Source: an uncultured Dongia sp.
Lineage (GTDB): Bacteria; Pseudomonadota; Alphaproteobacteria; Dongiales; Dongiaceae
Assembly: GCF_936916975.1 (NCBI RefSeq)
Contig: NZ_CAKZGO010000043.1
Coordinates: 62,001 to 126,000 of the forward strand
Reading direction: 5' to 3'
DNA length: 64,000 nucleotides
Shown here: positions 1 to 14,476 of the stretch, one piece after another
How the letters are laid out: every line of letters starts with the position of its first letter
Numbering within the stretch: position 1 is the stretch's first letter
Position numbers and translations under genes: made by a program
Notes under the pieces: model-generated
The model's input: only the letters and a program-made list of their open reading frames with translations
What the model was told of the DNA's origin: nothing
The model's database searches: none

Positions 1-315
1 CGAGAGCTGGAACACGATCCGGACCGGCGCCTTGGAGCGCTGCATGATCGCATAGGGCGTGCCGAAGCCAATATTCATCTGCCCGCTGAGCACGGCCTGG
101 ATGGCCAGCTCTTCATCGGCAAAAGCCGTCCATTCATAATCGAGCCCGTTGGCTTTTGCCCGGTCCAGCGCCACAAAGAATGCGGCCATCTCGTCCGACG
201 GTGTTTCCGCCAGCGCAATCTTGAGTGTTTCGGCGTGCGCCGACGACATCATCAGGCCGACCGCAAGTGCGGTTGCGCTGACGAAACCCGCGAATCTCTT
301 CGATAGACTCTTCAT
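1..315 (-). CDS. ABC transporter substrate-binding protein, N-terminal part (cut by window edge)
   Basis: The first 105 codons of a periplasmic binding protein are visible; the rest lies outside the window. The start ATG (313-315) is preceded by a strong GGAGGATGAC ribosome site. The N-terminus is a classical Sec signal peptide (KSLSKRF, a hydrophobic stretch, then SSAHA), followed by a mature start ETLKIALAE and a motif GQMNIGFGTPYAIMQRSK. These resemble NMT1/SsuA-type binding proteins for taurine, nitrate, thiamine-precursor or aromatic ligands. It diverges from the GntR regulator at 490 across a region with two palindromic operators, so it is probably the first gene of an operon controlled by that regulator. 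The ligand cannot be told from this fragment. Confidence 0.75.
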   Translation of the reverse strand, partial: MKSLSKRFAGFVSATALAVGLMMSSAHAETLKIALAETPSDEMAAFFVALDRAKANGLDYEWTAFADEELAIQAVLSGQMNIGFGTPYAIMQRSKAPVRIVFQLS

Positions 316-489: not shown

Positions 490-1227
490 ATGAATACCAT
501 TTTTGCCGAAGATGGTGGGGCGCTGACCCAGCTGCGGGCTTATCTCGCCCAGATGGAACTGCCCCCCGACAGCCGCCTGCCGCCGGAACGCGACCTCGCC
601 TTGACGCTGGGGGTGAGCCGCGCGGAGCTGCGCAAGGCGCTCTCCACGCTGGAAAGCGAGGGCCAGCTGTGGCGCCATGTCGGCAAGGGCACCTTCATCG
701 GCAGTCGGCCGATCGACACGCTGGCCGACATCGCCGCCATCACCCGCCGCACCAACCCGACCGAGGTGATGCGCACGCGCCTGCTGCTGGAACCGGAGGT
801 AACGCGCGCCGCGGCCCTCATGGCGACATCCGGCCAGATCGCCGAGATGCGCATTTGCCTTGCCAAGATGAAGAGCGCGCAGACCTGGCGGCAATATGAG
901 GCGTGGGACACACGCCTGCACCGCGTGGTGGCAGAGTCCAGCCAGAACTCGCTGCTCCTCGCTCTGCTGGACACGCTGAACGCCGTGCGCCGTGCGGTGG
1001 TGTGGGGGCGCTTACGCGCCAACAAGGTGAAGCCCGATCCCGATCACCACAGTTTTGCCGAACATGAAGCGATCGTGGCCGCGATCGAGGACCGCGACAT
1101 GGACCGCGCCGCCGGCGCCATGCGCCGCCATCTGCAAAGCGTCGAGCGCAAGCTGATGAAAACGGACAGCGACGCGGATCACGCCAGCAGCGAAACTGCC
1201 CGCGCCGATCTGGTGCTCGCGCGCTAG
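490..1227 (+). CDS. GntR family regulator, FadR/FCD subfamily
   Basis: A 245-residue transcription factor. Residues 15-70 form the winged helix-turn-helix, with the GntR signature DSRLPPERDLALTLGVSRAE followed by LRKALSTLESEGQLWRHVGKGTF. Residues 90-225 are an all-helical FCD effector domain, including the metal/ligand-binding pattern D-x3-H (DTRLH), a conserved HHSFAEHEAIVAAIE and a final RRHLQSVERKL. It diverges from a binding-protein gene and is convergent with the ammonia-lyase-like gene, overlapping it by 4 bp at the stop codons. It probably represses the transporter through the two AACCAAT/ATTGGTT palindromes. The effector is unknown. No clear Shine-Dalgarno precedes the ATG. Confidence 0.85.
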   Translation: MNTIFAEDGGALTQLRAYLAQMELPPDSRLPPERDLALTLGVSRAELRKALSTLESEGQLWRHVGKGTFIGSRPIDTLADIAAITRRTNPTEVMRTRLLLEPEVTRAAALMATSGQIAEMRICLAKMKSAQTWRQYEAWDTRLHRVVAESSQNSLLLALLDTLNAVRRAVVWGRLRANKVKPDPDHHSFAEHEAIVAAIEDRDMDRAAGAMRRHLQSVERKLMKTDSDADHASSETARADLVLAR

Positions 1228-2753
1228 AGATCTTTCGGCAAGCTCGCGGCGACAGCTGCGCCCCAGGCGCTCTCGCCCATGCGCTTTGCCACCAAAGCGA
1301 TGTCAGGCGACAGGAAGCGATCCTGGTTGTAGGGCGCGATCTCCTGGCGCAGGACGGCATAAGCCGCCTCGGTGCCGTGACCGCGCTTCAGGCCGGGATA
1401 GAACTCCATCGCCTGGGCCGCCAGCAGATATTCGATGGCGAGGATGTGGCGCGTATTGGCGATGACCTGCAGGCATTTCAGCGCTGAGGGTGTCCCCAGG
1501 CTGAGGTGATCCTCCTGCTGCGCCGAGGTGATGTAATTGTCGGTGACGTAAGGATGCGAGAGCAGCTTGTTCTCGGCCGCCAGCGACGCCGCCGCATATT
1601 GGGCGATCATCATGCCGGAATTGACGCCGCCTTCCGCCACCAGGAAGGCCGGCAAGGTGCTGACCGCCGGATTGATCAGCCGGTCGAGGCGACGTTCTGC
1701 GACGGAGCCCAGTTCAGCACTCGCCATGGCGAGGAGATCCATCGCCATCCCCAGACTTTGCCCATGCGGATGTGCATTTGAAATGACGCGGTAATCCTCC
1801 GGCGTGCCGATCACCAGCGGGTTGTCGGTGGCGGAGCCCAGTTCCACCTCGATCTGGCGGCGGACATGGTCGATCTGGTCGCGCGTGGCGCCATGGATCT
1901 GCGGGATCGAGCGGATCGAGAGCGCGTCCTGGGTGCGGAAACCCTTGAAATGGGCAACAATCTCGCTCCCCGCCAGCAACGCTCGCAACCGCCTGCCGAC
2001 ATGGAGGAGGCCCGGATGCGGCTTCAACGCCAGCACCGCTTCGTCATAGGCGGCGAGCTGGCCCTTCAGCGCTTCGAAGCTCAGCGCGCCGATGACATCG
2101 GCCCAATCGGCGAGCTGTTCGGCCTCCGCCAAGGCAAGGCAGGCGAGCCCGGTCAGGCAGCGCGTGCCGTTGACGAGGCAAAGGCCATCCTTCGCACCAA
2201 GTTCGATGGGAGCTAGGCCCGCGGCCTTCAGCGCATCATTGGCCGGCATCTGCTTGCCATCGACGATCACGTCACCGATGCCGATCAAGGCGAGGCCGAT
2301 ATGCGCACCATGAACGATGTAGCCGACCGACCCCTGGGACGGCACCACCGGTGTGATGTTGTGATTGAGCAACGCTGCCAATTGGCCGACCACCGCAACA
2401 TTGACGCCGGATTTGCCATGACACAGATCGTTGACGAGCGATGCCATGATGGCGCGCGTGGCCGTGATGGAAAGCGGTGCGCCGATGCCGCAGGCATGGC
2501 TCATCAGCGTGTTGCGCGACAATTGCGCCTGCTGCGCCCCGGTCAGCATGATCTCGGACAGCGCGCCAAGGCCGGTGCTGATGCCATAGGCGCGCTCGCC
2601 GCCCGCGATGATGCGCTCAACGATGGCGCGGCCGTTCTTAAGGCGGGCGGTGGCTGCGGCGCCGATGCTGATCTTGGCCGCGCCTTGGGCCACGGCAACC
2701 AATTGCCGATAGCTGAGCGCGCTGTCGCCTCGTTCCACCGTCATCGCCGCCAT
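1224..2753 (-). CDS. histidine/phenylalanine ammonia-lyase family protein lacking the MIO triad
   Basis: About 509 residues, homologous over its whole length to the HAL/PAL lyases. It shows AYGISTGLGALS (catalytic Tyr loop), SRNTLMSHACGIG, LVNGTRCLTG, GSATDNPLVIG, GVNSGMMIAQYAAA and AQQEDHLSLG. The cofactor-forming segment is abnormal. Where HAL has GSVG-ASG-DLAPLAH this protein reads GSVG-YIVH-GAH, so the Ala-Ser-Gly triad that cyclises to methylidene-imidazolone is absent and three residues are missing. Ordinary ammonia elimination is therefore unlikely; another lyase, isomerase or binding role is possible. I prefer the start at 2753 (GGAGCGG upstream). The longer frame to 2801 would run through a promoter palindrome. 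Confidence 0.8.
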   Translation of the reverse strand: MAAMTVERGDSALSYRQLVAVAQGAAKISIGAAATARLKNGRAIVERIIAGGERAYGISTGLGALSEIMLTGAQQAQLSRNTLMSHACGIGAPLSITATRAIMASLVNDLCHGKSGVNVAVVGQLAALLNHNITPVVPSQGSVGYIVHGAHIGLALIGIGDVIVDGKQMPANDALKAAGLAPIELGAKDGLCLVNGTRCLTGLACLALAEAEQLADWADVIGALSFEALKGQLAAYDEAVLALKPHPGLLHVGRRLRALLAGSEIVAHFKGFRTQDALSIRSIPQIHGATRDQIDHVRRQIEVELGSATDNPLVIGTPEDYRVISNAHPHGQSLGMAMDLLAMASAELGSVAERRLDRLINPAVSTLPAFLVAEGGVNSGMMIAQYAAASLAAENKLLSHPYVTDNYITSAQQEDHLSLGTPSALKCLQVIANTRHILAIEYLLAAQAMEFYPGLKRGHGTEAAYAVLRQEIAPYNQDRFLSPDIALVAKRMGESAWGAAVAASLPKDL

Positions 2754-2852: not shown

Positions 2853-3743
2853 CTACTTGCCGGTCGCGAAAGCCACGAAGGCAGCGGCCAAGGGCGATTG
2901 GCGCGCGGCGTCCAACTGGGCCAGCACGACCCGTTGCGGCGCCAGCTTTTCGGTGATCGGGCGGCAGGCGATGGCAACACCGTCATAGCTGCGGTCGCCG
3001 GCGGGCCGCGTACAGGAAAGTGCCACGCCGGCGCCATGGGCCACCAAGCCGCGCTGCATCTCGAAGGTCTGGGTGTATTGGCTGACCCGGGGCTGGTGGC
3101 CATGGGCCCAGAACAGCGACATGAAATATTCCCGCGATTGCGCCATGTCCTCGAGGATCAGCTTCTCTTTCGCCAGCGCCGCCAGCGAGACGCTGCGGCG
3201 CTTGGCCAGGGGATGGTTCGCCGGCAGCAGCGCGTAGGGCGGCAGCTCCGCCAGCACCCAGCGCTTGATGTCGGCTTCGATACCCAGCTCATAGGTAACG
3301 GCAAGCTCGCTGCGGCCACCGACCAGGCTTTCGCGCACCGCGGTAAAATCGCCTTCGAACAGATCGACGACGGCATCGGGATGCAGCTTGCGAAAACCGG
3401 CGAGCAGCCGCGGCAGGATATAGGGGGCGAGGTCCTTGAAGCAGCCGACCGTCAGGCGCCCTTTGAGCGGGCCCACCGGCGGAATGGCAGCACTCGACAT
3501 CTGTGTGGCCAAGGCCAAGAGCGCGCGTGCCTGGTCGAGCAGGATGCGGCCGGCCGGGGTCAGGGTCAGGCCGTGCCCCGCGCGGCGATGGAACAGTTTC
3601 TCGCCCAGCAAGGCTTCCAACTGGCCGATCGCCATCGACATGGCCGGCTGCGCCACGCGCCGCGCGCGGGCGGCAGCGCTGACATTGCCATGCTCGGCGG
3701 TGGCGACGAAGTAATCGATCTGGCGGAAGGTGAATGGTATCAT
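2853..3743 (-). CDS. LysR family transcriptional regulator
   Basis: A 296-residue LysR-type regulator. The N-terminal HTH reads FTFRQIDYFVATAEHGNVSAAARARRVAQPAMSMAIGQ in two overlapping stretches, with LFHRRAGHGLTLTPAGR as the wing. Residues 90-290 form the two-lobed effector domain, starting GRLTVGCFKDLAPYILP. I chose the ATG at 3743 (AAGG shortly upstream, standard LysR N-terminus) over the longer frame beginning at 3773. It diverges from the phytanoyl-CoA dioxygenase-like gene at 3836, with under 100 bp between them, the classic arrangement of a LysR regulator and its target. The co-inducer is unknown. Confidence 0.85.
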   Translation of the reverse strand: MIPFTFRQIDYFVATAEHGNVSAAARARRVAQPAMSMAIGQLEALLGEKLFHRRAGHGLTLTPAGRILLDQARALLALATQMSSAAIPPVGPLKGRLTVGCFKDLAPYILPRLLAGFRKLHPDAVVDLFEGDFTAVRESLVGGRSELAVTYELGIEADIKRWVLAELPPYALLPANHPLAKRRSVSLAALAKEKLILEDMAQSREYFMSLFWAHGHQPRVSQYTQTFEMQRGLVAHGAGVALSCTRPAGDRSYDGVAIACRPITEKLAPQRVVLAQLDAARQSPLAAAFVAFATGK

Positions 3744-3835
3744 GAATACCTTATACATCTCTATCAACATCATCTATTTCTCATGATGCCCTGGATCTGG
3801 CAAGTCTGTTGCCCAGATGAATGGACGAGGTCGTG

Positions 3836-4642
3836 ATGAAAATCGGTGCGGATGAGGTCGCCAGTTACGCCAGGGACGGCGCCGTTGTGCTGAAGGGGGC
3901 GTTCAAGGAATGGGTCGAACCCTTGCGCGCCGGCGTCGCGCGCAACATGGCGGCGCCCGGCCCGTTCGGCACCGAGAATGTCCGCCCCGGCGATGGCGGC
4001 GGCAGCTTCTTCGACGATTACTGCAACTGGGAGCGCATCCCGGAATTCAGCGACTTCGTGACCAACTCGCCGGCGGCGAAACTGGCCGGGCAGCTGATGG
4101 CCAGCCGCACGTCGCAGATCTTCCACGACCATGTGCTGGTGAAGGAACCGGGCACGGCGAAGAAGACGCCCTGGCACCAGGACATGCCCTATTACTGCGT
4201 CGATGGCATGCAGACCGGCAGCTATTGGATTCCGCTCGACCCGGTGACCAGTGACAACACCTTGCGCCTGGTATTGGGCTCGCATCTTTGGCCCAAGCTG
4301 GTGCGCCCGAAGCGTTGGGCCGGCGGCGAGGATTTCTATGCCGACCAGGACCAGTTCATGGACATGCCGGATGTCGAGAGCAGCGCGTTCCGCATCCTCG
4401 CCCCAGCACTTGAACCGGGCGATGCGATCCTCTTCAACTATCGAACCGTGCACGGCGCCAACGGCAATAGCGGCACGAACCGTCGCCGCGCCTTTTCCTG
4501 CCGCTTTCTCGGCGATGACGCGGTGTTCATCCAGCGTCCCGGCCGTACTTCGCCGCCCTATCCCGGCATCAACCAGCAAAGCGGCGAACGCCTGCGCGAA
4601 GACTGGTTTCCAACGGTCTGGCGGCAGGATACTGCGGCGTAG
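3836..4642 (+). CDS. phytanoyl-CoA dioxygenase (PhyH) family Fe(II)/2-oxoglutarate oxygenase
   Basis: A 268-residue member of the PhyH family, which hydroxylates small molecules with Fe(II), O2 and 2-oxoglutarate. The iron triad is visible: His114 and Asp116 in TPWHQDMPYY, and His206 in NYRTVHGANG. An Arg-rich stretch (NRRRAFSCRF) just after it likely supplies the 2-oxoglutarate ligand. I chose the second ATG (3836), which has GAGG upstream, over the ATG at 3821. It diverges from a LysR regulator and may be followed by the binding-protein and VOC genes in one unit. The substrate is unknown; bacterial homologues act on varied metabolites. Confidence 0.85.
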   Translation: MKIGADEVASYARDGAVVLKGAFKEWVEPLRAGVARNMAAPGPFGTENVRPGDGGGSFFDDYCNWERIPEFSDFVTNSPAAKLAGQLMASRTSQIFHDHVLVKEPGTAKKTPWHQDMPYYCVDGMQTGSYWIPLDPVTSDNTLRLVLGSHLWPKLVRPKRWAGGEDFYADQDQFMDMPDVESSAFRILAPALEPGDAILFNYRTVHGANGNSGTNRRRAFSCRFLGDDAVFIQRPGRTSPPYPGINQQSGERLREDWFPTVWRQDTAA

Positions 4643-4675
4643 GGAGCGAGCGATTGTGTGCTCCCTCTCTCTTGC

Positions 4676-4704
4676 GTCATCCCCGGGTCAAGCCCGGGGA
4701 TGAC
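4676..4704. repeat. GTCATCCCCGGG hairpin repeat
   Basis: GTCATCCCCGGG (4676-4687) pairs perfectly with CCCGGGGATGAC (4693-4704) around a 5-nt loop. It lies between the PhyH-like gene and the binding-protein gene. Short GTCATCCC-type palindromes of this kind are dispersed intergenic repeats in many alphaproteobacteria. There is no T-run, so a role as a simple terminator is uncertain. Confidence 0.7.
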
Positions 4705-4807
4705 GGTTTATGACAGGTACACTCGCATCCTTGCCCCGCGCCGGGGAGTCGGGCAAGCTCACCCGCATCCGCGTACCGATGAAGGACGCTGCCTTGCAGG
4801 TGTGGGA

Positions 4808-5599
4808 ATGTCATTTCGATCGCTGATCCTGGCTTGTGTTGTTGCCGGCTTCTGCGCAGCATCGGCACAGGCAGATCCAGTGACCCTGCGGCTCGGCTAT
4901 TCCGACAAGGAATCCGCCTATTTCCTGACCGGCAATGGCGCCGCCATCCCGGAAAGGCCGGGCGTTGCAATCGAGATGGTGCAGACGGCGGCGGCGAGCT
5001 GCGATGTCGCGCCGGAATTCGCGCGCTATCCCGGCGGGCGGCTGGTGGCCCTCGCGACCGACAATACCATCGACGCAGTTGTGCTGTTGTCCTTCAGCCC
5101 GGAGCGCCTCGCGATGGGCGCCTATCCGATGAAGGGCGACAGTGCCGACCCGGATTTCCAGATCGCCACGCTGAGCTACGCCTTCTATGTGCGCAGCGAC
5201 AGCAACATCGCCTGGGATGGCAAGGCAATGACCGGCCTCGCCCGGCCGATCGGCGCCAATCTCGGCTGGTCCATCGTGCAGGACCTCATGAAGATGAACC
5301 TGCCGGTGGAGCCCGCCAAGGACACACAGAACAACTTCAACAAGCTGTTACTGGGCCGCATCGATGCCGTCGCCATGCACACCACGATCGGCGATGCCTA
5401 TCTTGAGGAGCACGCTTTGGGCACCAAGGTGAAGCTGCTGCACCCGCCGATCACCAGCAAGCCCTATTACCTGGTGTTCAGCCACACCTGGCACGACCAG
5501 CATGCAGCCCTCGCCGAGTGTCTGTGGCAGTCGATCGCCACCCAACGCCAGACGGTCCTGCCGGCACTGCTGGCGCGGTACGGCGACACCATCAATTAG
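4808..5599 (+). CDS. periplasmic substrate-binding protein, family 3-like
   Basis: A 263-residue secreted protein with a clear signal peptide (MSFRSLILACVVAGFCAASA then QADP). The mature part begins VTLRLGYSDKESAYF and has the two-lobed pattern of family-3 solute-binding proteins: GVAIEMVQTAAASC near residue 60 and LGRIDAVAMHTTIGDAYLEE near residue 195. No permease or ATPase is adjacent, so it may serve a distant transporter or act as a sensor-type binding protein. The start at 4808 is chosen because the signal peptide begins there; the longer frame upstream reads through the hairpin repeat. Confidence 0.7.
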   Translation: MSFRSLILACVVAGFCAASAQADPVTLRLGYSDKESAYFLTGNGAAIPERPGVAIEMVQTAAASCDVAPEFARYPGGRLVALATDNTIDAVVLLSFSPERLAMGAYPMKGDSADPDFQIATLSYAFYVRSDSNIAWDGKAMTGLARPIGANLGWSIVQDLMKMNLPVEPAKDTQNNFNKLLLGRIDAVAMHTTIGDAYLEEHALGTKVKLLHPPITSKPYYLVFSHTWHDQHAALAECLWQSIATQRQTVLPALLARYGDTIN

Positions 5600-6731: not shown

Positions 6732-8429
6732 ATGACTGCCAACGGTCTTCTGCAGATCGCTTTGTTCTGCATCGTCATCATCGCGCTGACCAAGCCTGTG
6801 GGCGCGTTCATGACACGCGTCTTTGCGGGTGAGGTCAGGTTCCTCGCACCCGTCGAGCGCGTGATCTATCGCCTGTGTGGCATCAATCCGCGCGAGGACC
6901 AGCATTGGACGGTCTACGCGCTCTCGATGCTTTTGCTCAACGGAGCAGGCTTTGCCTTCCTCTATGCGCTGATGCGATTGCAGGACGTGCTGCCGCTCAA
7001 CCCGCAAGGCTTCGGCGCAGTGGCGCCGGATCTCAGCTTCAACACCGCGATCAGCTTTGTCACCAACACCAACTGGCAGAACTACGCCGGCGAATCGACC
7101 ATGAGCTATCTGACGCAAATGGCCGGTCTCACCGTGCAGAACTTCCTCTCCGCGGCGACCGGTATTGCGCTCGCCGTGGCGCTCATTCGTGGCTTCGCGC
7201 GTAAATCGGCGAGCGGCATCGGCAATTTCTGGGTCGATCTCACGCGCTGCACGCTCTACATCCTGCTGCCGCTCTCCTTCGTCATCGCCTTGTTCCTGGT
7301 GACCCAGGGCATGCCGCAGAACCTCAACGCCTATGTCGACGCGACGACCGTGGAGGGCGCGCATCAGACCATCGCGCAGGGTCCGGTCGCGTCGCAGGTT
7401 GCCATCAAGATGCTGGGTACAAATGGCGGCGGCTTCTTCAACGCCAATGCGGCACATCCCTACGAGAACCCGACGCCGCTCTCGAACTTCGTACAGATGG
7501 TGGCGATCTTCGTGCTGGGTGCGGGCCTCACCAATGTGTTCGGCCGCATGGTCGGTGACCAGCGCCAGGGCTGGGCGATCTTCTCGGCCATGGGTGTCCT
7601 GTTCCTGATCGGCGTCGGTGTCTGCTATTGGGCAGAATCCCAGGGCAATCCGGCGCTTGCCGCTCTCCATCTCGACCAGGGCCTCGGCAATATGGAGGGC
7701 AAGGAGGTGCGCTTCGGCATCGCCAATTCCGCGCTCTTTGCCACCATCACCACGGCGGCGTCCTGCGGTGCGGTCAACGCGATGCATGACAGCTTCACGG
7801 CACTGGGCGGCATGGTTCCCATGATCAACATGCTGCTGGGCGAGGTCATCATCGGCGGTGTCGGCGCCGGCCTCTATGGCATGCTGCTGTTCTGCATCAT
7901 GGCGGTGTTCATCGCCGGGCTCATGGTCGGCCGCACGCCGGAATATGTCGGCAAGAAGATTGAGGCGCGCGAGGTCAAGATGACCATGCTGGCCATCCTC
8001 TGCATCCCGCTGGTGGTGCTGGGTTTCAGCGCGGTGGCAACGGTGCTGCCCGATGCCCTCAAAAGCATCCAGGACGGCGGCCCGCACGGCTTCTCGGAAC
8101 TGTTCTATCTCTACACCTCCAGTGCCGCCAACAATGGCAGTGCGTTCGGCGGCTTCACCGGCAACACGCCCTACTACAACGTGACCGGCGGCATCGCAAT
8201 GTTCATCGGCCGCTTCTTCGTGATCCTGCCGGCGCTGGCCATCGCCGGATCGCTGGCTTCCAAGAAAAGCGCCCCGGTCAGTGCCGGCACTTTTCCGACC
8301 CACGGCCTGCTGTTCATCGTGTTGCTGGTGGGCGTGGTGCTGATCGTCGGCGGCCTCACCTATTTCCCGGCCCTCGCCTTGGGTCCGGTGGTCGAGCATC
8401 TGATGATGCAATCCGGCCAGTTGTTCTAA
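6732..8429 (+). CDS. kdpA: potassium-transporting ATPase subunit A
   Basis: A 565-residue polytopic inner-membrane protein, the K+ channel-like subunit of the high-affinity Kdp pump. It has about ten transmembrane segments and the selectivity-filter repeats typical of the superfamily of K+ transporters: [10 protein letters not shown] near residue 115, [19 protein letters not shown] near residue 230, [11 protein letters not shown] near residue 345 and [13 protein letters not shown] near residue 465. The length matches the family (about 555-570). It is followed 11 bp later by kdpB. It is part of an operon normally induced by low K+ through KdpDE. Confidence 0.97.
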
Positions 8430-8440
8430 GGAATATGTAA

Positions 8441-10486
8441 ATGACCTCTCGTAAAACGACCTTGTTCGATCGCCAGATCCTGGGCCAGGCTTCGATAGCC
8501 GCCTTCCGCAAACTGGATCCACGCCAGCTCTACACCAATCCGGTGATGCTGGCGGTGGAACTGGTCGCCTTCGTCGCCACGATCCTGTTCGTCCGCGACC
8601 TGGTGACAGGTGCCGGCACGCCCTTTGCCGGGCAGATCGTGCTGTGGCTCTGGGTGACGGTGCTGTTCGCCAATTTCGCTGAAGCCGTGGCGGAAGGCCG
8701 CGGCAAGGCCCAGGCCGATGCGCTCCGCAAGTCGCGCATCAACGCGACGGCCAAGAAGCTCGGCGGCAACGGGAAGGCGTTCGAGATCGTCTCGGCCCTT
8801 TCCCTCGTCCCCGGCGATGTCGTGCTGGTGGAAACCGGCGACCTCATCCCCGGTGACGGCGAAGTCGTCGACGGCATCGCCTCGGTCGATGAATCGGCCA
8901 TCACCGGTGAATCGGCGCCGGTCATCCGTGAAAGCGGCGGCGACCGCTCGGCCGTCACCGGCGGCACCCGCGTGCTCTCCGACGAGATCAAGGTGAAGAT
9001 CACGGCGGCGCAGGGCTCGACCTTCCTCGATCGCATGATCGGCCTCGTGGAGGGCGCCAAGCGCCAGAAGACGCCCAACGAGATCGCGCTCAATATTCTC
9101 CTTGCCGGCATGACGCTCATCTTCCTGTTTGCGGTCGCCAGCATCCCGAGCTTTGCGCATTATGCCGGCGGCAGCGTCTCGGTCATCGTGCTCATCGCGC
9201 TTTTCGTGACCCTGATACCCACCACGATCGGCGCGCTGCTGTCGGCGATCGGCATCGCCGGCATGGACCGGCTGGTGAAGTTCAACGTCCTTTCCATGTC
9301 CGGCCGCGCGGTCGAGGCGGCGGGCGATGTCGATACACTCCTTCTCGACAAGACCGGCACGATCACGCTTGGCAACCGCCTGGCATCGGAATTCGTGCCC
9401 GTCACTGGCGTCACGGCGGAGGAGCTGGCCAATGCAGCCCAGCTCTCCTCCTTCAGCGACGAGACACCGGAAGGCCGCTCGATCGTCGTGCTGGCCAAGG
9501 AGAAATACGGCCTGCGTGGCCGCGACATGGCGCCGATGCATGCCGTGTTCGTACCCTTCACCGCCCAGACCCGCATGAGCGGCGTCGATGTCGACGGCCG
9601 GAGCATCCGCAAGGGTGCGGTCGATGCGGTCATGGAATTCGTGCGCGCCCAGAAAGGTGGCGTCAGTGCTGCCTCAGCGGAATTGACCCAGATCACCGAA
9701 CGCATCGCCAAGAGCGGCGGCACGCCACTGGCCGTGGCCGATGGCGACCGCATCCTCGGAATCATCCATCTCAAAGACGTGGTCAAGGGCGGCATCCGCG
9801 AGCGCTTCCAGGAACTGCGCCGCATGGGCATCCGCACCGTGATGATCACCGGCGACAATGCACTGACCGCCGCCGCCATCGCCGCCGAAGCCGGGGTCGA
9901 CGACTTCCTGGCCCAGGCGACGCCGGAGGCCAAGCTGAAGCTCATCCGAGAAGAACAGGCCAAGGGCAAGCTGGTCGCCATGTGCGGCGATGGCACCAAT
10001 GACGCGCCGGCCCTGGCGCAAGCAGATGTCGGCGTCGCCATGCAGACCGGCACGCAGGCTGCGCGCGAGGCCGGCAACATGGTCGATCTCGACAGCAATC
10101 CAACGAAGCTCATCGAGATCGTCATGATCGGCAAGCAGCTCCTGATGACGCGCGGCGCCCTCACCACTTTCTCGATCGCCAATGATGTGGCGAAGTATTT
10201 CGCCATCATCCCGGCGATGTTCGCGGCCTTCTATCCGCAGCTGGGTCTCTTGAACGTCATGGGATTGGCGACGCCGGAAAGCGCCATCCTGTCGGCCACC
10301 ATCTTCAACGCGCTCATCATCGTGGCCTTGATCCCCCTCTCGCTGAAGGGTGTCCGCTACCAGGCGAAGAGCGCCGGCTCGCTGCTGGCCAGCAATCTGG
10401 TGATCTATGGCTTGGGTGGGCTGGTCGTGCCGTTCATCGGCATCAAGCTCATCGACCTCGCCCTCAATGCGATCCATCTCGTCTGA
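8441..10486 (+). CDS. kdpB: potassium-transporting P-type ATPase subunit B
   Basis: A 681-residue P-type ATPase that energises K+ import by KdpA. The A-domain motif TGES ([10 protein letters not shown]) is present, as are the phosphorylation site [10 protein letters not shown] (Asp303), the nucleotide-binding domain and the hinge [16 protein letters not shown]. The phosphorylation-site position is close to that of the E. coli enzyme and the length is normal. The RBS (AAGGAATATGTAA) and the close spacing to kdpA and kdpC show translational grouping. Confidence 0.98.
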
Positions 10487-10498
10487 AGGAGATACATC

Positions 10499-11065
10499 AT
10501 GCTTGCCCAATTACGCCCGGCCCTCCTGCTGCTGATCCTGATGACCGTGATCACGGGCCTCGCCTATCCTCTGGCAGTCACCGGTACCGCGCAGCTGCTG
10601 TCGCCCGATGCCGCCAATGGCAGCCTCGTCACCCGCGACGGCCAGGTGATCGGCGCCGCCATGATCGGTCAGAAATTCACCGGCGAGACCTATTTCCACA
10701 GCCGCCCGTCGGCCGCCGGCGCCGATGGCTATGACGCCGCCGCCTCGTCCGGTTCCAATCTGGGCCCCACCTCAAAGGCGCTCATCGACCGCATCGCGCA
10801 GGCGACCGCGGCCGAGCAGGCCACTTCCACCGAGAAGGTGCCGGTCGATTTGGTGACCACCTCCGGCAGCGGCCTCGACCCCGACATCACCCCGGAAGCC
10901 GCCTATTTCCAAATCGACCGCGTCGCCTCGGCCCGTGGCCTCGACGCCGCCAAAATCCGCGACCTGGTCGAGGCTCATGTCACCGGCCGCACCTTCGGTA
11001 TTCTTGGCGAGCCGCGGGTCAATGTGCTAACGCTCAACCTGGCGCTGGACGACCTCGCCAAATGA
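10499..11065 (+). CDS. kdpC: potassium-transporting ATPase subunit C
   Basis: A 188-residue subunit with one N-terminal transmembrane helix ([20 protein letters not shown]) and a periplasmic domain. It shows the conserved [15 protein letters not shown] and [12 protein letters not shown]. It ends with the ligand-like tail [17 protein letters not shown]. KdpC assists assembly and K+ delivery in the KdpFABC complex. A strong GAAGGAGATACATC site precedes the ATG, and kdpD follows after 31 bp. Confidence 0.97.
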
Positions 11066-11096
11066 TGGACCGCCCCATGATGGACCGAAACAATCG

Positions 11097-13784
11097 ATGG
11101 CCAATGCGCCCGATTCCGTAAGCCGACCATCCGCCGACGCGCTGCTGGAATCGGCAACGCGCGAACAGCAGGGCCGCCTCAAGATTTTTCTGGGGGCGGC
11201 CCCTGGCGTTGGCAAGACCTATGAAATGCTGCTGGCCGGCCGCAAGCGCCGCGCCGACGGCATCGATTGCGTCATTGGCGTGGTCGAGACCCATGGCCGC
11301 GTCGAGACAGAGGCGCTGATCGAGGGCGCCGAGATCATCCCGCGCAAGCTGGTGAGCTATCGCGGTCGCGAGCTGCCGGAGATGGATATCGACGCCATCA
11401 TCAAGCGCCGGCCGCAGCTGGTGCTGGTCGACGAGTTGGCGCATACCAATGCCGAAGGATCGCGCCATACCAAGCGCTATCAGGATGTCGAGGAGTTGCT
11501 GACCCACGGCATCGACGTTTATGCGACGCTCAACATCCAGCATCTGGAAAGCCTCAACGATGTGGTGGCGCAGATCACCCATGTGCGGGTGCGCGAAACC
11601 CTGCCCGACCGTGTCGTCGACCGGGCCGACGAGGTGGAGCTCATCGATCTCACGCCCAAGGACCTCATCCAGCGCCTGAAGGAGGGCAAGGTCTATATGC
11701 GCGATGCTGCCGACCGCGCATTGCAGCATTATTTCTCCGAAGGCAATCTCACCGCCTTGCGCGAACTGGCCCTGCGCCGCACCGCGCAGCGGGTTGACGA
11801 CCAGATGCTCAATTACATGCAGGCCCATGCCATCGCCGGCCCTTGGGCCGCGGGCGAGCGCGTGCTGGTCTGCGTCAACGAACACCCGGCCTCCTTCGGC
11901 CTGGTGCGCTATGCCAAGCGCGCCGCCGACCGCATGCAGGCGCGCTGGAGTGCCGTTCATGTCGAGACCGTGCGCTATCACCACCTCTCGGAAAAGGACC
12001 GCGACCGCGTCGACGAAGCCTTGCGCCTTGCTGAACGCTTAGGGGGAGATGCTGTCACCCTGCCCGGCAATCATATCGCGACCGATCTCATCGATTACGC
12101 CCGCGCCAACAACATCACCCAGATCATCATCGGTAAATCGACCCGCTCCCGCTGGTTCGAATGGTTGCATGGCTCGGTGGTGCGGGACCTGGTGCGCGCA
12201 TCGGGCAATATCGGCATCCATGTCGTGGCCGGTGCGCAAGGCAAGGAAGAGCCCTCGGCACCGGACGAGGGCACCGCCGCGGCCCCTTTCAACTTCGCCC
12301 CCTTCATCGGCAGCGCTGTCACCGTGGGTCTCGCGCTGATCGTCAGCCTTGCCATCGACCAATTCATCGATCTCCCCAACATCTCCATGATGTTCCTGGC
12401 GGCAGTGCTGTTCTCCGCCGTGCAATACGGCTTGCTGCCATCCCTCTTTGCCTCGGTCCTCAGCACGCTCGCCTATAACTATTTCTTCCTGGAGCCGATC
12501 CATACCTTCACCGTGGCCGATCCCTCCAACGTCATCGCCCTCTTCTTCTTCCTGATGGTGGCGATCCTCACCAGCAATCTCACCGCCAAGGTCCGGGCCG
12601 AGGCGCGCGCTTCGCGCCAGCGCGCAGCCTCCACCGCCGCACTCTATAATTTCAGCCGCAAGGTCGCAGCGATCGGCGAGATGGACGATCTGCTCTGGGC
12701 GGTCGCGCATCAGATCGCCCTCATGCTGCGGGTCCATGTCATCCTGCTGCTGCCGGAAGACTCGGGCGAGATCGCCGTGCGCATCGGCTATCCGCCGGAT
12801 GACGAATTGAACGCCGCCGACCTCGCCGCCGCGCGCTGGGCCTGGGATCATGGCAAGCCCGCCGGACGCGGTGCCGAGACTTTACCCGGGGCCAAGCGCC
12901 TGTTCATTCCCCTTGCCACCGAACGCGGCAAGATCGGCGTCATGGGCCTCGACCGCGAAGAAACCGGCCCGATGTTCACACCGGAACAGAAGCGGCTGCT
13001 CGATGCGCTGTGCGATCAGGCGGCGGTCGCTATCGAGCGCATCAGCCTGATGCAGGATATCGACAAGGCGCGTGTGGTAAGTGAGACGGAGCAGCTGCGC
13101 ACCGCCCTCCTCAACTCGATCTCCCATGATTTCCGCACACCCTTGGCCTCCATCATCGGGTCCGTTTCCAGCCTGCGCTCGCTCTGGCAGAAATTTCCCG
13201 AAGAAACCCGCGAGGATCTGCTGCGCACGGCGCAGGAGGAAGCGGAGCGCCTCAACCGCTTCATCGGCAACATTCTCGACATGACGCGGCTGGAAGCGGG
13301 CGCGCTGGCGCCCCGCAAGCAGCCGGTCGATCTTGGCGATATCATTTCCGGCGCCCTCGGTCAGGCCAAGGCAATCCTGTCGCAGCATCGTATCAAGATC
13401 GATATTCCTGACAACTTGCCGATGCTGGCATTGGATGCGACCTTGACCGGGCAGATTCTCATGAACATGCTCGACAACGCGGCCAAATACGCGCCGCCGG
13501 GAAGCGAGATCAGCGTGACCATAGAAGAAGGCCCCGAGGCGATCACGCTCACGGTCGGTGACGAAGGGCCGGGCATTCCGCCCAACGACCTCGAGCGGAT
13601 CTTCGACCGCTTCTTCCGCGTCGAGGGCGGTGATCGCCGCCGCGCCGGCACGGGCCTCGGCCTGGCCATCTGCCGCGGCTTTGCCGAAGCGATGGGTGCC
13701 GGCATCGTGGCTGCCAACCGCACCGACCGGACCGGCGCCCTCCTCACTTTGCGTTTTCCGGCGAGCTTGAAGGTCGCGGCATGA
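11097..13784 (+). CDS. kdpD: osmosensitive K+ channel sensor histidine kinase KdpD
   Basis: An 895-residue membrane kinase. Residues 25-235 are the N-terminal KdpD domain with Walker A GAAPGVGKT and a VDELAHTNAEGSRH motif. A universal-stress-type domain spans about 250-375 (IIGKSTRSRWFEWLHGS). Four transmembrane segments follow near 400-500, then a GAF-like domain (about 520-660). The dimerisation domain carries His677 in NSISHDFRTPLASIIGS. The C-terminal ATPase domain has the N box (NMLDNAAKYAPPGSE), G1 (VGDEGPGIP) and G2 (GTGLGLAICRG). It senses low K+ or turgor and phosphorylates KdpE. Its stop overlaps the kdpE start. Confidence 0.97.
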   Translation: MANAPDSVSRPSADALLESATREQQGRLKIFLGAAPGVGKTYEMLLAGRKRRADGIDCVIGVVETHGRVETEALIEGAEIIPRKLVSYRGRELPEMDIDAIIKRRPQLVLVDELAHTNAEGSRHTKRYQDVEELLTHGIDVYATLNIQHLESLNDVVAQITHVRVRETLPDRVVDRADEVELIDLTPKDLIQRLKEGKVYMRDAADRALQHYFSEGNLTALRELALRRTAQRVDDQMLNYMQAHAIAGPWAAGERVLVCVNEHPASFGLVRYAKRAADRMQARWSAVHVETVRYHHLSEKDRDRVDEALRLAERLGGDAVTLPGNHIATDLIDYARANNITQIIIGKSTRSRWFEWLHGSVVRDLVRASGNIGIHVVAGAQGKEEPSAPDEGTAAAPFNFAPFIGSAVTVGLALIVSLAIDQFIDLPNISMMFLAAVLFSAVQYGLLPSLFASVLSTLAYNYFFLEPIHTFTVADPSNVIALFFFLMVAILTSNLTAKVRAEARASRQRAASTAALYNFSRKVAAIGEMDDLLWAVAHQIALMLRVHVILLLPEDSGEIAVRIGYPPDDELNAADLAAARWAWDHGKPAGRGAETLPGAKRLFIPLATERGKIGVMGLDREETGPMFTPEQKRLLDALCDQAAVAIERISLMQDIDKARVVSETEQLRTALLNSISHDFRTPLASIIGSVSSLRSLWQKFPEETREDLLRTAQEEAERLNRFIGNILDMTRLEAGALAPRKQPVDLGDIISGALGQAKAILSQHRIKIDIPDNLPMLALDATLTGQILMNMLDNAAKYAPPGSEISVTIEEGPEAITLTVGDEGPGIPPNDLERIFDRFFRVEGGDRRRAGTGLGLAICRGFAEAMGAGIVAANRTDRTGALLTLRFPASLKVAA

Positions 13785-14476
13785 GCGGCGCCCTGGAAAT
13801 CCTCATCATTGATGACGAACCGGCGATCCGCCGCTTCCTCAAGAGCAGCCTGCTCGCGCATGATTTTGCCGTGACTGAAGCTGGGACGGGTGCGGCCGGC
13901 CTCGCTGCTTTGGCGCGCGGCAATTTTGCGCTCGCCGTGGTCGATCTGGGCCTCCCCGATATGGATGGCCACGAATTGGTGCGCGCCATCCGCGCGCAAT
14001 CGCCGCTGCCGATCATCGTGCTCTCGGTGCGCGATGACGAGGCCGGCAAGGTCGCGGCCCTCGATGGCGGTGCGGACGATTACGTGACCAAGCCCTTCGG
14101 CATCGAGGAATTCATGGCGCGCATCCGCGCCGCCTTGCGCCACCGCCTGCAGCAGCAGGGTCGCGCCGCCGTCTTTCGCAACGGCGATCTTGCCATCGAC
14201 ATCCTCGCCCGCGAGGTCACCATGCGCGGCGAGGTGATCAAGCTGTCGCGGCGCGAATTTGATCTGCTGCTGTACTTGGCCGAACATGTCGGCAAGGTGG
14301 TGACCCACGGCCAGGCCCTGGGCCATGTCTGGGGTGCCGCTCATGGCGAAGATGTCGAATACTTACGCGTCTATATCCGCCAGCTGCGCCAGAAGATCGA
14401 AACCGATCCGCAACAACCGGCGCTGATCCTGACGGAACCGGGGGTTGGGTATCGGATGAAGTTGGTGGATAGCTAA
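13781..14476 (+). CDS. kdpE: KDP operon response regulator KdpE
   Basis: A 231-residue OmpR-type regulator. Receiver domain residues 6-118: acidic DDE at the start, phospho-acceptor Asp55 in VVDLGLPDMDG, and Lys near 104 in YVTKPFG. The C-terminal winged helix begins about residue 135 and includes LSRREFDLLLYLAEHVGKVV and the end DPQQPALILTEPGVGYRM. The ATG overlaps the kdpD stop (ATGA), so the pair is translationally coupled. It should activate the kdp promoter upstream of 6502. Confidence 0.97.
   Translation: MSGALEILIIDDEPAIRRFLKSSLLAHDFAVTEAGTGAAGLAALARGNFALAVVDLGLPDMDGHELVRAIRAQSPLPIIVLSVRDDEAGKVAALDGGADDYVTKPFGIEEFMARIRAALRHRLQQQGRAAVFRNGDLAIDILAREVTMRGEVIKLSRREFDLLLYLAEHVGKVVTHGQALGHVWGAAHGEDVEYLRVYIRQLRQKIETDPQQPALILTEPGVGYRMKLVDS

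Follow-up and report, generated by a model that had tools for sequence, protein, structure and literature searches.

The described proteins closest to the one studied here are canonical histidine ammonia-lyase (HutH or HAL; 1b8f and its mutants), whose cofactor MIO is formed from an Ala-Ser-Gly triad, ergothionase (ergothioneine trimethylamine-lyase; 6s7j/6s7q) and the Pseudomonas protein named HutH1, the second 'histidase' in the hut cluster of SBW25. The numbering of HAL residues used throughout and their roles (imidazole and carboxylate contacts, Tyr280, Phe329), together with the roles of the ergothionase residues, are as we assume them to be, and Lys383 of 6s7j we likewise take to be catalytic in ergothionase. 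For HutH1, the relevant part of a review places hutXWV and hutH1 as insertions beside hutH in the hut cluster of SBW25, and states that growth of this strain on histidine does not need hutH1 (PMC8871633). Ergothionase is described, in the part of PMC13405746 that deals with it, as structurally like HAL/PAL/TAL, lacking MIO and yielding trimethylamine.

We have analysed a stretch of 64,000 nucleotides from an uncultured Dongia sp. (contig NZ_CAKZGO010000043.1), here called the window. The original prediction was that the ORF at 1224-2753 encodes an ammonia-lyase homologue reading GSVGYIVHGAH at the cofactor site, with the MIO triad absent, and the ORF call, the translation and the alignment all confirm it. 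The ORF starts with an ATG at 2753 and runs for 509 aa without an internal stop. The features discussed below are the following (coordinates of single residues were counted from the start codon, and their equivalences come from the alignment).

1-315, minus strand: initial part of the gene for an NMT1-type binding protein; the other genes of this ABC importer lie before the window (L035:4937-8315)
490-1227, plus strand: GntR/FCD regulator, convergent neighbour of the lyase gene (ORF call, profile matches)
1224-2753, minus strand: MIO-less HutH-like lyase, 509 aa, PF00221 (ORF call, profile matches, fold)
1512-1514, minus strand: Glu414, equivalent to HAL Glu414, kept
1596-1598, minus strand: Tyr386, where HAL has Val386 and ergothionase Lys383
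1920-1922, minus strand: Leu278, in place of HAL Tyr280
2169-2171, minus strand: Asn195, equivalent to HAL Asn195, kept
2301-2333, minus strand: cofactor loop GSVGYIVHGAH, residues 141-151; Tyr145 at HAL Ala142, HAL 143-145 deleted, His148 at HAL Pro148
2496-2498, minus strand: His86, equivalent to HAL His83, kept
2586-2588, minus strand: Tyr56, equivalent to HAL Tyr53, kept
2853-3773, minus strand: LysR regulator (profile matches), which G006 and G001 likewise have next to the lyase
3821-4642, plus strand: PhyH-type dioxygenase (Pfam), which G006, G001 and G005 likewise have next to the lyase

PF00221 was the sole Pfam match of the window lyase (531 bits), and the NCBIfam hutH profile (TIGR01225) scored 525.6 bits, slightly below its curated cut-off of 539.15. 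LVNGT and QEDHLSLG, which had been named together with the Tyr loop as conserved blocks, are both found in the protein, and the equivalent of HAL Tyr53 is in place. It had also been proposed that three residues are missing and that the triad is exchanged for Tyr-Ile-Val. The deletion stands, the residues being HAL Ser143-Gly144-Asp145; the exchange does not, as it is Tyr145 that aligns with Ala142, and the Ile-Val-His of the loop is aligned to HAL Leu146-Ala147-Pro148. That the gene is no decaying pseudogene and has no frameshift agrees with the intact ORF and with dN/dS values of 0.13-0.28 against five orthologues (counting method, dS 0.77-0.98); between two of these orthologues the value is 0.075 by the same method. 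A sequencing error that restored the triad, named in advance as a possible refutation, is excluded by the presence of the same loop throughout the clade. More generally, the clade-wide change and the purifying selection rule out chance, a frameshift or a base error behind the altered loop, and the absence of the triad rules out an ordinary HutH. The window lyase has an intact HutH fold and lacks the Ala-Ser-Gly from which MIO forms.

Structure prediction, which had been suggested as a check, gave the HAL fold. The AlphaFold2 model, built from 36 sequences (32 of the clade and 4 canonical HutH), has a mean pLDDT of 89.2 and a pTM of 0.91, with the region of the MIO loop modest in confidence (mean pLDDT 74 for the block 141-150, and below 50 for residues 410-413). 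The top Foldseek match is the P. putida histidine ammonia-lyase (1gkj; TM 0.90, 38% identity), and ergothionase 6s7j comes at rank 19 (TM 0.86-0.88, 29% identity). When solved relatives are ranked by sequence, histidine ammonia-lyases again come first (341 bits), and 6s7j scores 193 bits.

We compared the active sites of 85 clade sequences (a set that excludes L061:2517-4049) with those of 83 canonical HutH. The Ala-Ser-Gly triad is present in none of the 85 and in all 83 HutH, these rows having been selected for having it. At the position of HAL 142 there is Tyr in 85/85 clade sequences and Ala in 83/83 HutH, and positions 143, 144 and 145 are deleted in the clade. Other positions have changed as well: that of HAL Pro148 is His in 85/85, that of Tyr280 is Leu in 84/85, that of Phe329 is Pro in 83/85 and Ala in 2/85, and that of Val386 is Tyr in 85/85 (Val in 78 of the 83 HutH). 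All 85 keep the equivalents of Tyr53, His83, Asn195, Gln277, Arg283 and Glu414. Judged from these alignments, the electrophile is gone from the clade, as are some of its near partners, and the residues that contact the imidazole and the carboxylate in HAL have been retained. An imidazole substrate is favoured over phenylalanine or tyrosine because the His83 and Glu414 equivalents are kept and the neighbours belong to the urocanate pathway (see below); a lyase acting on phenylalanine or tyrosine is disfavoured on the first of these grounds.

A search for homologues sharing the loop, the other check that had been suggested, returned seven full-length orthologues plus a fragment, and the loop in every locus of a wider scan. 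In the set of 61 genomes searched (own genome included), seven of the same family carry full-length orthologues with GSVGYI[VT]HGAH at 66-84% identity, an eighth (G002) has a contig-edge fragment with the same loop, and distant orthologues (49-51% identity) occur in two other families (G049, G055). In the wider genome scan GSVGY was present in 80/80 of the lyase loci, the best 80 of 585, and two further members of the clade have the loop GSAGYLTH. At E values up to 1e-110, the gene was detected in 6 of the 190 genomes sampled from the class and in 10 of the 200 from the phylum. Moreover, there are matches in 169 plasmid records, 139 of them Rhizobium, and among the 40 rows listed of these 169 all 26 annotated matches are labelled histidine ammonia-lyase. 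The loop was checked in three of the plasmid records: it reads GSAGYLVH in Rhizobium and GSVGYLTH in Erwinia, and in the Burkholderia copy the search with the loop pattern gave no match, this copy being without ASGD and having the QDPLS and MIAQY signatures. The altered loop is a conserved trait of the clade and not a peculiarity of the genome from which the window comes.

Trees were made from 52 non-redundant ORFs, minus L002 (the window gene again), L020 (a fragment) and L019 (a fused ORF), and include 7 of the best 80 of 585 loci; a second tree was also without the long branches L033, L034, L057 and L058. With the loop columns left out, the window clade forms one branch of 17 rows (support 100/100) with the Pseudomonas loci inside it, and separate branches are formed by the ergothionase-like proteins (9 rows, 97/94), by those with the loop GQGGAGEI (6 rows, 100/100) and by canonical HutH (24 rows, 94/91). 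The branch of 6s7j is long. The ergothionase-like clade and that of the window gene stand on separate supported branches, but forcing them together was not rejected (p-AU 0.171), so that a single loss of MIO behind both is possible.

Eight relatives have ergothionase-like proteins (L048-L055) with loops such as GSIGAS-DL and ASVGES-DL, and for one of them (L051) the nearest PDB entry is 6s7j (250 bits). Their substrate may not be ergothioneine, since HAL His83 is replaced in all eight rows. Further MIO-less PF00221 loops (GLGMAGEI, GSIGCA-DI) were seen in relatives at L056, L057 and L058, and one genome (G015) has two paralogues of the GQGGAGEI type close together (L061).

The neighbourhoods of the lyase in other genomes belong largely to the urocanate pathway. 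HutU was found in 72, HutI in 74, HutG in 74, HutC in 60 and HutF in 49 of the best 80 of 585 loci, counts that are not independent, as these loci come mostly from one genus (74/80 are titled Pseudomonas, and three are contigs of one P. costantinii assembly). Canonical HutH is present in 63 of the same 80, so that plain histidine would already be served. A glycine-betaine-type (OpuAC) binding protein occurs in 68 of these best 80 of 585, an SBP_bac_3-type one in 10 and either in 77, the type being assigned, here as in the further loci and the control below, by which of two phmmer queries (one OpuAC, one SBP_bac_3) matched best; in the eleven loci examined it was confirmed by Pfam. The commonest order (41 of the best 80 of 585) is HutF, HutC, HutU, importer, MIO-less gene, canonical HutH, HutI, HutG. 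As a control we took 20 of the 44 genomes positive for HutU and negative for the lyase, chosen for family spread (the L190 stretch is shorter than the others): none of the 20 HutU loci had an importer of either type, and 17 had canonical HutH. In the 200-genome sample, HutU was present in all 10 lyase-positive genomes versus 54/200 overall (Fisher p 1e-6, kinship ignored).

Eight further loci, some of which may be repeats of the best 80, had an importer in 7/8 and at least one hut gene in 8/8, with HutC alone in one. Within the searched set, three genomes have the lyase in a cluster with HutC, HutF, HutG, HutI and HutU (G013, G015, G009), in G012 it is adjoined by HutC and HutF, in G055 it stands between HutI and an importer that is followed by HutF, HutC and HutU, and in G049 it is flanked by an OpuAC importer and HutU. 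The HutU beside the lyase in G013, G049 and G055 is a urocanate hydratase and scores below the thiourocanate hydratase cut-offs. A formate-tetrahydrofolate ligase was seen near the lyase in G012, G013, G015 and G009 (L040, L042-L044); perhaps it uses the formate released by HutG. The plasmid cassettes of Rhizobium, Erwinia and Burkholderia (L195, L196, L197) consist of a binding protein, two permeases, an ATPase and the lyase, with an importer of the SBP_bac_3 type. The link between lyase and hut genes is not universal, since no hut gene besides the lyase was found in the Erwinia plasmid stretch. The nearest solved relative of one of the OpuAC proteins is a glycine betaine/proline binder (76 bits), and for the SBP_bac_3 protein of L072 the closest ones are nopaline- and octopine-binding proteins.

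The situation in the genome of the window is different. No hut marker was found in the 19 kb read around the gene (L035). PF00221 genes number three in this genome, from four match pieces: the window lyase, a canonical HutH with the loop GSVGASGDLAPLAH on contig C15, and a second MIO-less paralogue (L003:1405-2835, loop GQGGAGEI) on contig C6, beside which lies an ORF that by eye looks thiolase-like. Its only HutU and only HutI above cut-off are on C6 too, with HutC, HutF and HutG. Counting the own genome, four members of the genus have PhyH next to the lyase and three have LysR there. In the window, the GntR and LysR regulators named by the original prediction are both present, the NMT1-type importer lies beyond the GntR gene, and the transporter component that it mentioned could be either the gene at 1-315 or the ORF at 4658-5599, which had no Pfam or NCBIfam match and by eye looks like a periplasmic binding protein. 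The NMT1-type importer was given no weight as cognate importer, because none of the nine other lyase neighbourhoods contains a homologue of its binding protein. Farther along, at 6732-14476, a run of ORFs resembles a kdpABCDE potassium uptake operon (a visual judgement based on one translation and on the sizes of the ORFs).

What could such a protein do? That it catalyses MIO-free elimination from some N-substituted histidine we consider probable, because the imidazole contacts are kept, the electrophile is lost, the gene sits in the urocanate pathway, often beside a working histidase, and the importers are of betaine type. As for the identity of the compound, we would give about an even chance to a MIO-independent lyase for which hercynine (histidine betaine) is the leading candidate, with urocanate and trimethylamine as products. 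The imidazole amino acid would be bound by the equivalents of HAL His83 and Glu414, and the substituted amine would be removed from the alpha carbon through acid/base chemistry. Hercynine is N-alpha-trimethylhistidine, and its nitrogen, being quaternary, lacks the lone pair that an attack on MIO requires; trimethylamine could leave without electrophilic activation, so MIO would be useless and could be lost. The conserved Tyr145 and Tyr386 may help to form an aromatic cage around the trimethylammonium, the importer directly upstream in most relatives would supply the substrate, and the urocanate would feed the hut pathway.

The points for hercynine are the kept residues, the linkage to hut genes and importers, the frequent presence of canonical HutH, the urocanate type of HutU, the kinship of the binding protein with betaine/proline binders, the stated dispensability of SBW25 hutH1 for growth on histidine and the precedent of ergothionase; in our judgement they leave the matter evenly poised. 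Counted against it are the position of the own-genome lyase, outside the hut cluster and with an importer of the NMT1 type, the resemblance of the second importer type to nopaline/octopine binders and not to betaine binders, and the absence from the clade of Lys383 and SCN of ergothionase. In the open-access papers covered by our search we found no hercynine lyase and no paper on hutX and proline betaine; a hercynine lyase may have been described elsewhere.

The lyase with different chemistry of the original prediction is probably right, and the isomerase and ligand-binding roles that it also offered survive only as rivals of low probability. Nearest to the preferred reading is a MIO-free lyase that also yields urocanate and acts on some other N-alpha-substituted histidine, such as histopine, an opine of histidine, or N-methylated histidines other than hercynine. 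Histopine-like substrates are kept open because the SBP_bac_3 variant of L072 is nearest to nopaline/octopine binders, and importers of this type occur in 10 of the best 80 of 585 loci and on the Rhizobium, Erwinia and Burkholderia plasmids; however, the OpuAC importer is commoner (68 of the same 80) and, by chemical reasoning, a secondary amine would be a poorer leaving group without MIO, which makes this alternative rather unlikely. A non-catalytic protein that binds histidine or urocanate, perhaps in a regulatory role, would account for a fold kept after the catalytic electrophile was lost. We regard it as decidedly unlikely, given that catalytic-site residues, among them the Tyr53 and Asn195 equivalents, are conserved in 85/85, that Tyr145, His148 and Tyr386 are new invariant residues, and that linkage to an importer fits a catabolic enzyme.

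Sharing of operons with HutH (63 of the best 80 of 585 loci) might instead suggest a helper of HutH, that is, a residual or conditional histidase acting on histidine without MIO. Some bearing on this comes from Pseudomonas aeruginosa. In the portion of PMC12772324 that concerns these genes, PA5093 is labelled hutG, and the delta-hutG mutant has growth defects on histidine and urocanate. The hutG label is doubtful, because the gene order of P. aeruginosa PA7 (L091), with the MIO-less gene between importer and HutI and with HutG after HutI, puts the MIO-less gene in that slot, and from this order we infer that PA5093 is the MIO-less gene. If the PA5093 label is right, the poor growth of the deletion on histidine speaks for the histidase; if PA5093 was truly deleted, it would count against hercynine and point to a wider role or a polar effect. 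On the other side stand the missing triad in 85/85 clade sequences and the dispensability of SBW25 hutH1 for growth on histidine, as stated in the review passage (PMC8871633), and a residual histidase seems to us quite improbable. Even less credit can be given to a cis to trans urocanate isomerase, for which the hut neighbours could be cited, or to a lyase whose amino acid substrate has no imidazole, for which we saw nothing specific: both leave the co-travel of the importer unexplained, and the kept His83 and Glu414 equivalents point to imidazole.

Returning to the preferred reading, a lyase on hercynine, its consequences would be several. Bacteria would possess a dedicated route for breaking down histidine betaine with release of trimethylamine, a group of proteins annotated as histidine ammonia-lyase would be misnamed, and the clade would illustrate how a self-made electrophilic cofactor is lost when the leaving group changes. 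Pseudomonas HutH1, whose role is left open in the relevant part of the review (PMC8871633), would gain its missing function. Whether the clade is a second class of MIO-free HutH-fold lyases, differing from ergothionase in loop and catalytic residues, through which hercynine or some other N-alpha-substituted histidine enters the hut pathway could in our view go either way, and the same balance applies to a further part of this proposal, namely that an importer-lyase cassette is carried on chromosomes and plasmids, hidden in databases under the name of histidine ammonia-lyase.

Among known systems, HutH1 of Pseudomonas belongs to the same clade and the same place: in the 74 Pseudomonas-titled loci among the best 80 of 585, the MIO-less gene usually has an OpuAC-type importer on one side and HutH or HutI on the other, and on this position rests our judgement that the Pseudomonas loci carry the gene named hutH1. 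The Pseudomonas members listed have 60-65% identity to the window gene, which differs in lying outside the hut cluster, with PhyH and LysR. Ergothionase resembles the window clade in being MIO-less, in its fold (TM 0.86-0.88), in the Leu at the position of HAL Tyr280 and in keeping the His83 and Glu414 equivalents. Unlike the clade, it has the loop SSIGEGDITTLSH, SCN in place of NGT and Lys383 where 85/85 clade sequences have Tyr386; identity is 29%, and in the tree it stands on another supported branch (97/94), with a forced union of the two groups not rejected (p-AU 0.171). Its partner thiourocanate hydratase is not matched either, the three HutU tested (G013, G049, G055) being urocanate hydratases. 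With canonical HutH the window lyase shares the fold (TM 0.90, 38% identity), and the clade differs from it in the loss of Ala-Ser-Gly and in the replacement of Tyr280 by Leu (84/85), Phe329 by Pro (83/85) and Val386 by Tyr (85/85).
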